Assembly: GCF_000021945.1 (NCBI RefSeq)
Contig: NC_011831.1
Span: forward strand, 1-64,000
Source of the DNA: Chloroflexus aggregans DSM 9485
GTDB taxonomy: Bacteria > Chloroflexota > Chloroflexia > Chloroflexales > Chloroflexaceae
Length of the DNA stretch: 64,000 nt
Reading direction: 5' to 3'
Part shown: in pieces, positions 61,495-62,560 of the stretch
Position numbering within the stretch: position 1 is the first letter of the stretch
How the letters are laid out: every line of letters begins with the position of its first letter
Program-made: the position numbers and the translations under genes
The notes under the pieces: model-generated
The model's input: only the letters and a program-made list of their open reading frames with translations
Database searches by the model: none
Told to the model about the DNA's origin: nothing

Positions 61495-62009
61495 AATGTG
61501 CTCCTTGCGTGTGCGGGCCTCAGGAGAGTGTCAAAATCACGTATCCGGCGTATTCAAGATGCGTTTTAACCCACGCTAGAATCGTAGACAAGTCAATCTG
61601 CTCAGGGATGGTCGTGTCGATGGTGAGTAACGGTCCGCCAATCGGGAGTGGTTCAATCGGGCCTCGTGTGCGCACGGTAGCGAGGTCGGTCGGCGATACA
61701 TCATCGCAATGACCGGGGTGGCGCTGACCTGAGGCAAGCCGTCGCAGAATTCGCTCAACCAGCACCTCACCATCGGCTACACAGCGTATCTGTACCGGGC
61801 GAAACGGAGCCTTAGCGTGGAGATTCTGCATCCGCGTTGTATCAAGATCAACGCGAAAATTGCTCTCCATAATCAGTGACTGCCCACTGCTTAGGATGGT
61901 CGCTGCCGTATGGTAGATAATGGTAATCGCTGTAGCACCAACCTGCCGCGACCATGCCCGATCCGACCAGCCTAACCCATCGAACATCAACTCCTTATAG
62001 GCATCTTTA

Positions 62010-62223
62010 CAAAACAGGCGCGCGAAAGCTCACACCCTTTAGGGGTGGGATGAAGCGCGATACTGATGTGGAGATACACATTGCACATCCACACAACATC
62101 ATCGACACAATCTATGATATACTGTATCCTAAAGAAAGGCGAGGGCACCGCCTTCGGGGAGGCTCAGCCGTTAGGCGGGCCGCAGAACCGAGAACCCCAC
62201 AGGCTTTAGCCGTGGGCGTGTCA
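62010..62223 (+). mobile_element. Non-autonomous IS200/IS605-like element (214 bp)
   Basis: The boundaries are inferred from the split kinase frame: deleting 62010-62223 (or one base left) restores it exactly, with no target duplication, as for IS200/IS605 transposition. The left end has an imperfect hairpin with a TTTA loop (CACACCC/GGGGTGGG, about 62030-62050). The right end has CCCAC-GGC/GCC-GTGGG (62196-62216, one bulged A) with a TTTA loop, seven bases from the boundary. Subterminal hairpins of this type are typical of the family. No transposase or TnpB frame is present, so it must be mobilised in trans. Confidence 0.75.
62129..62223 (+). ncRNA. Possible omega-RNA-like transcript of the element
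   Basis: An extended -10 box (TGATATACT, 62115-62123) inside the element points toward its right end. The roughly 95 bases that follow contain several GC hairpins and end in the right-end stem-loop. This is the layout of TnpB/IscB guide (omega) RNAs, which end at the element boundary. No TnpB gene is in the window, so this is a structural resemblance only. Confidence 0.3.
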
Positions 62224-62324
62224 GTTAACAACGGTAAGCACAGGCTGGTAGCCAGCGCTTGTGAAATGGTTGTTTTACCGGTAGCCGGATGCCCGGTGAT
62301 AATGATCAACGTTGGTGTTTGCAC

Positions 62325-62560
62325 AGTTGTATATTATACTTCCTCTCTTTGCGATCGGAGAGGAGCCGATCATTGTTTACCAGGCTCTACTGCGTGGTGG
62401 TTGGGGAAGAGGAAAAAAGTGTACGTACCAAAAGCCATGAAACAACTCATCCCTCGCTTCCTGGTTATCGGGCGAGGGGTGAGGGGCAAACGGACAAGAG
62501 GTGAGAACTCCTGCCCCTCTTCCACCTACGGGAAAAGGGGCATGGCATGAGGGATCAAAT
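62325..62560. other. 236-base gap between split kinase and isocitrate lyase
   Basis: It holds a minus-strand TATAAT (62334-62339) close to the kinase GTG. Two weak stems follow: CCCTCGC/GCGAGGG (62451-62478) and TGCCCCT/AGGGGCA (62512-62542). The second lies 19 bases past the isocitrate lyase stop and may be its terminator. No gene is seen. Confidence 0.45.

Follow-up and report, generated by a model that had tools for sequence, protein, structure and literature searches.

A minus-strand gene for a P-loop kinase-like protein is cut in two by a 214-bp insert, and we consider it very likely (with a probability of about 0.9) that this insert is a non-autonomous, ends-only (PATE- or MITE-like) derivative of a resident IS608-type element of the IS200/IS605 family. 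The mini-element, which occupies positions 62011..62224 of the plus strand, consists of the fused left and right ends of such an element, and a core of the TnpB-associated omegaRNA (reRNA) is recognised in its right part. The genome examined is a single contig of 4,684,931 bases, 99.99% complete, and the window, that is the whole stretch of DNA that was analysed, covers its bases 1-64000. An earlier note on this window had already proposed that a kinase gene is split here by an insert of 214 bp, and both the split and the length were borne out.

The 5' part of the kinase gene (62225..62324, minus strand) begins with a GTG start codon and encodes the Walker A motif GHPATGKT, the 3' part lies at 61520..62010 of the same strand, and a serine codon is split by the insertion (62009-62010 plus 62225). 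The joined protein matches the Pfam family AAA_33 with an E value of 3e-10, above its cut-off, and also Zeta_toxin (E 1.5e-7). Orthologues of the gene are unsplit in all seven other genomes of the genus. Alignment to homologues, which had been suggested as a check, was carried out with tblastn, and each of the seven congeneric orthologues aligned across the join at 74.6-78.9% identity, none of them naturally containing a segment there; among the eight genus genomes examined, the insertion is present only in this species. A search for solved structures at E ≤ 0.01 yielded a single relative, chain A of PDB entry 2rhm (a putative kinase; E 1.6e-97), whose alignment across the join is gap-free. 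At E ≤ 0.001, the own genome yielded no second copy of the kinase, the sole two matches being the two halves themselves. A TGA was marked in one of the kinase matches (L040, in genome G007), the first 190 codons of which are open, and it is most likely the gene's own stop codon, because other orthologues end at that length too.

Neither half of the interrupted gene contains a stop codon or a frameshift. The dN/dS values of the kinase against six relatives (0.083-0.136) lie within the range given by 21 pairs of relatives (0.036-0.216), although dS is saturated in these comparisons and one of the seven was not computable. The undecayed halves, taken together with dN/dS, fit a recent insertion or, less economically, a gene which is still used after excision.

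To place the boundaries, the insert was compared with family sequences from 14 of the 15 places that they occupy in the own genome, a diverged remnant being left out. Left ends were found in 12 of the 14 sequences, every one of them directly preceded by TTAC, and right ends could be read in all 14, each closing with TCAG. Therefore, the element spans 62011-62224; it begins directly 3' of a TTAC that is kept (62007..62010, plus strand), which is both the target and the left cleavage site, and it ends in TCAG (62221..62224, plus strand), the right cleavage site. By analogy to ISDra2, the same TTAC would also be expected to act as the TAM of TnpB. The correct join is thus 62010|62225, where the empty site reads LPLLSKDAYKEL and the protein LPLLS-KDAYKEL. 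The earlier note had joined 62008 to 62223, thereby removing 62009-62222 and restoring LPLLT-KDAYKEL; the length of this segment was right, but its position was 2 bp off, and the threonine at the join has to be replaced by serine, the residue found there in all seven congeneric orthologues and in 2rhm_A. More distant homologues vary at this residue, one having Ser, another Thr and the others neither. With the join moved to 62010|62225, the exact restoration of the frame that had been claimed, with no base gained or lost and no target duplication, stands. At the orthologous empty site, TTAC is present in three of the seven congeneric relatives and TTGC in four, and one of these relatives (L043) is identical to the joined site over TTACTTAACAACGG.

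When the own genome was searched with the insert and its short flanks, 25 matches were obtained in 15 places, which comprise two mini copies, ten two-ended copies (20 matches), two copies of which only the right end was matched, and one diverged remnant. The two-ended copies are 1475-1673 bp long, their ends lying about 1.5-1.7 kb apart, and they encode a Y1 transposase, which may be complete or truncated, and behind it a TnpB of at most 380 aa; OrfB_IS605, Cas12f1-like_TNB and HTH_OrfB_IS605 domains were found in the TnpB of one copy (L061). The genome gives 16 Y1_Tnp matches in all, some of which come from outside the insert's parent family. In the insert itself, ~115 bp from the left end of a gene-bearing copy are fused to ~100 bp from its right end. 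An insertion of the single-strand IS200/IS605 type, as had been proposed from the window alone, agrees with the TTAC/TCAG ends, the exact empty site and the presence of TnpA and TnpB copies in the genome. The second mini copy (3052659-3052871, 213 bp) is 96% identical to the first and has the same deletion junction; therefore, one deletion derivative has occupied two sites, and past mobility of it is likely, since the two related copies lie at different sites.

Searches of the seven other genus genomes with the insert gave no match at E ≤ 0.001, and a plasmid search with it gave no match either. A phylum-wide search with TnpB gave matches at E ≤ 1e-60 in 38 of 400 genomes, one of which is the own genome, and a contig scan with TnpB returned only three loci, at 36% identity. 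The diverged remnant (G000:C1:756456-756540, in L069) derives from a right end; it is 79% identical and covers positions 17-95 of the omegaRNA model described below, the match being without the terminal TCAG. The possibility that the insert is a coding sequence was considered and rejected, as it holds only short mechanical ORFs. Rfam, applied to the whole window at the gathering threshold, reported a single tRNA only.

Among the 12 gene-bearing copies, the HUH motif of TnpA reads HLH in four (L057, L062, L063 and L066) and HLP in the other eight, the Tyr region is missing from L063, L065 and L067 according to a motif search, and a nine-residue RuvC-I segment with its aspartate is deleted from three of 12 tnpB copies (L059, L063 and L068). 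With HLP in eight tnpA copies and RuvC-I lost from three tnpB copies, active enzyme may be scarce. The HLP copies have dispersed nonetheless, which suggests that the family is driven in trans by a small number of HLH copies. In three copies (L057, L062 and L066) none of the motif regions examined is missing, neither the HUH pair and the Tyr region of TnpA nor any of the three RuvC motifs of TnpB; TnpB is open at 380 aa in L062 and L066, and that of L057 ends at 338 aa. As for the RuvC-I deletion in L059, L063 and L068, it is in-frame and common to all three, the rest of TnpB being open. These three proteins are predicted from their sequence to be nuclease-dead, and they may possibly be left with DNA binding only. 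A further peculiarity was observed in L068 (332-1732, minus strand), where the TnpB frame is without its usual stop at the right end and reads into the host sequence, which gives a 466-aa ORF with flank-encoded residues.

The transposition signals of an IS608-type element can be recognised at both ends of the mini-element. On the left, a candidate guide tetranucleotide, AAAG (62025..62028, plus strand), identical to the left guide of IS608, is located 5' of an imperfect hairpin, which with its foot extends over 62019..62059 of the plus strand (DNA fold z -2.93 vs 200 shuffles). On the right, the guide GAAC (62192..62195, plus strand) is found at an imperfect hairpin (62194..62219, plus strand; DNA fold z -2.08), and its fourth base is the Watson-Crick complement of that of the right cleavage site. 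The guide/cleavage pairs are therefore AAAG/TTAC on the left and GAAC/TCAG on the right, and the window copy obeys the pairing rule. This rule could be followed among 26 relatives, hand-picked from 69 as a single RNA class because their first stems share one pattern; they come from a script-made list of 31 loci, from which two spurious rows of output were discarded and five loci of a different stem class were left out (L099, L103, L106, L116 and L140). The fourth bases of right guide and cleavage site form a Watson-Crick pair in 25 of the 26 (17 T-A, 6 G-C and 2 C-G, with one T-C). When labels were shuffled, the mean was 13.5 Watson-Crick pairs and none of 20000 shufflings reached 25, a procedure which ignores the relatedness of the sequences. 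A looser, mechanical parse of all 69 relatives, with some evident misparses on both sides, gave Watson-Crick pairs in 59 of the 66 that could be parsed (3 remained unparsed). Such covariation of the right guide and cleavage site (GAAT/TCAA, GAAG/TCAC, GAAC/TCAG) helps to fix the ends of an element to the base from sequence alone.

With respect to classification, the fixed short target without duplication and the subterminal hairpins with matching guides are those of an IS608-type element. The Y1 HUH TnpA is absent from the 214-bp copy and present in the parent copies, and the former is therefore filed as an ends-only derivative and not as an autonomous member. It has near-terminal palindromes, no coding capacity, both ends in common with an IS605 element and a second copy in the genome, as is characteristic of PATEs and other ends-only IS605 derivatives.

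The right part of the mini-element carries more than transposition signals. An alignment of the stretch between the last conserved part of TnpB and the end of the element, built from these 26 phylum relatives with none from the own genome, yielded an omegaRNA consensus of 24 pairs; for 19 of them, at least one relative has both bases replaced with the pairing preserved. The resulting R1 covariance model is matched by the window copy over all 103 positions (62124..62224, plus strand; 62.2 bits, E 7.6e-18), and by the second mini copy also over all 103 positions (58.7 bits); scores of 51.1-70.8 bits were obtained for the 12 gene-bearing copies. When the own genome was scanned with this model, 150 of 1421 candidates being scored, there were 15 matches, and these are the 15 known places. 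Of the 24 consensus pairs, 22 can form in the window copy, 23 in the second mini copy, and 23 (nine copies) or 22 (three copies) in the gene-bearing ones; a loop-closing pair of stem I, kept by all 12 gene-bearing copies, is lost in the window copy. The minimum-energy RNA fold of the window copy gives the consensus stems, but it surpasses shuffled sequences by a modest margin only (z -1.58), 13 of 200 shuffles being at least as good. In the loop of the first stem, GGCA (62144..62147, plus strand) can pair with UGUC at 62219-62222 into a pseudoknot; all four pairs are possible in 25 of the 26 relatives and in the window copy, and one mismatch occurs in the second mini copy (tail UUUC, not UGUC). 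By analogy, this pseudoknot would be equivalent to that of ISDra2. Thus, a conserved fold which ends at the right end and includes a pseudoknot, as in a TnpB omegaRNA, is present in an element of 214 bp.

In ISDra2 the guide is taken from the flank, and the corresponding ~16 nt here would be 62225..62240 (plus strand), which is kinase coding sequence. When TTAC plus this putative guide was searched in the own genome with up to three mismatches, only the element's own right junction matched, and the predicted target (TTAC followed by the flank) is exactly the empty kinase site. The mini-element would then be, by the same analogy, a near-minimal guide-RNA unit whose guide is the kinase sequence from 62225 onwards. 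The indication of a promoter for its RNA is weak: the stretch 61900-62400 (501 bases) contains two promoter-like sites vs 0.5 expected, and only one of them is located within the insert. We also looked for stand-alone omegaRNAs among relatives. Among the loci listed (at least 30), 28 had a TnpB sequence nearby and two (L197 and L198) had none, and the latter are uninformative because the contig ends within 40 bases upstream of the RNA. At one locus of another Chloroflexota genome (L182), the omegaRNA match is preceded by a TnpB from which a large inner portion is missing (query residues 2-76, then 299-358), and judging from its sequence this may be an intermediate towards a mini-element.

Mobilisation in trans (past as well as future), excision, transcription of the RNA, its loading into TnpB and cleavage are steps that we infer, and the course of events that we propose is the following. 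TnpA supplied in trans by gene-bearing copies would have inserted the mini-element, in single-stranded form, 3' of TTAC in the kinase gene, and it could also excise it exactly. Since the omegaRNA core is kept and the right flank would serve as its guide, TnpB from the gene-bearing copies would be expected to cut the TTAC-adjacent empty kinase allele, which would promote renewed copying of the element. With a working guide RNA, an allele freed by excision is predicted to be cut and re-filled, so that the default state would be a stably interrupted gene. That the mini-element is indeed a working stand-alone guide-RNA gene, whose RNA is transcribed in the absence of a protein gene, loaded by TnpB of other copies and used to cut the empty allele, which would keep the gene interrupted, is a tentative idea which we hold to be possible, though doubtful.

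Several other explanations of the interrupted gene have to be weighed against these. It is quite possible, though still short of probable, that the insertion is dead, i.e., an inert relic in which the RNA core is a mere passenger of the right end. In these elements the omegaRNA overlaps with the right end, so that some of it must persist in every ends-only derivative, and the pseudoknot mismatch of the second mini copy, as well as the stem I pair missing from the window copy, are what one might expect of such a relic. However, about 100 nt of the right end were kept, whereas the transposase, by analogy to IS608, should need only the terminal 33 nt with guide, hairpin and cleavage site. Moreover, both mini copies have their deletion junction immediately 5' of the first conserved stem, and both match the omegaRNA model over its full length. 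An unlikely alternative is a reversible switch, as the earlier note suggested, in which TnpA acting in trans excises the mini-element often enough to maintain a subpopulation with an intact kinase. Both ends, the guides and the cleavage tetranucleotides are intact, a full-length TnpA with HUH pair and Tyr region is encoded by L057, L062 and L066, and the kinase halves show neither stop nor frameshift and have dN/dS values inside the range of their relatives. Nevertheless, a recent insertion accounts equally well for an undecayed kinase, dS is saturated, and a TnpB-omegaRNA complex would target the very allele that excision restores.

A third possibility, that we are not dealing with a transposon but with a natural insertion or an intein- or intron-like segment of the kinase family, might be suggested by the exact frame obtained on removal. 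It is refuted by the absence of the segment from all seven congeneric orthologues, by the gap-free alignment of 2rhm and by the occurrence of the same ends at many loci, and its probability is practically negligible. We retain the reading of the insert as an ends-only derivative of the resident IS608-type family. If its RNA works as proposed, non-autonomous IS605 derivatives would be full beneficiaries of RNA-guided retention in trans. Whether ends-only IS605 derivatives keep and use the guide RNA of their parents is a clean, testable question, and several features converge at this locus: two mini copies, apparently intact TnpA and TnpB copies, an empty site in seven relatives and a solved relative of the kinase.

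IS608 of Helicobacter pylori pairs TTAC with AAAG on the left and TCAA with GAAT on the right (PMC5934647). The element studied here resembles it in the TTAC kept on the left, the AAAG left guide, the subterminal hairpins and the lack of target duplication, and also, in its parent copies, in the combination of a Y1 TnpA with TnpB (PMC5934647, PMC8612924). It differs from IS608 in its right pair, GAAC/TCAG instead of GAAT/TCAA, which is a compensated change, and in that the window copy is gene-less. In ISDra2, the reRNA is a right-end RNA whose 3' end is formed by ~16 nt of flank, and the TAM is the transposition target (PMC8612924); the 3' end of the RNA forms a pseudoknot with a 5' segment, and what lies upstream of -116 is dispensable (PMC10097598, PMC8612924). 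A right-end RNA with a flank-derived guide, a pseudoknot at the 3' end and a TAM equal to the target would be shared with our element (PMC8612924, PMC10097598). The difference is that here the RNA lies in an element without tnpB and would act with TnpB made elsewhere in the genome.

Elements reduced to their ends have been described before. Some PATEs of Haloquadratum apparently arose from IS605-type elements by deletion of the core (PMC3119063), and one example of an ends-only IS605 sequence comes from Halanaerobium (PMC7290912). In the largely open-access literature that was searched, we found no description of a complete omegaRNA in an ends-only IS605 element, and mini-element terms had no match in the available text of PMC12558985. 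Like PATEs, the mini-element has near-terminal palindromes, is devoid of inverted terminal repeats and target duplication, and is too short to encode a transposase (PMC3119063). Unlike them, it comes from another phylum. The ends-only copy described here can moreover be seen to contain a complete omegaRNA core, a feature not discussed in the cited passages on those elements. Ends-only IS605 elements as such are thus already known in the form of PATEs, and what is added here is one that has kept the whole omegaRNA core.
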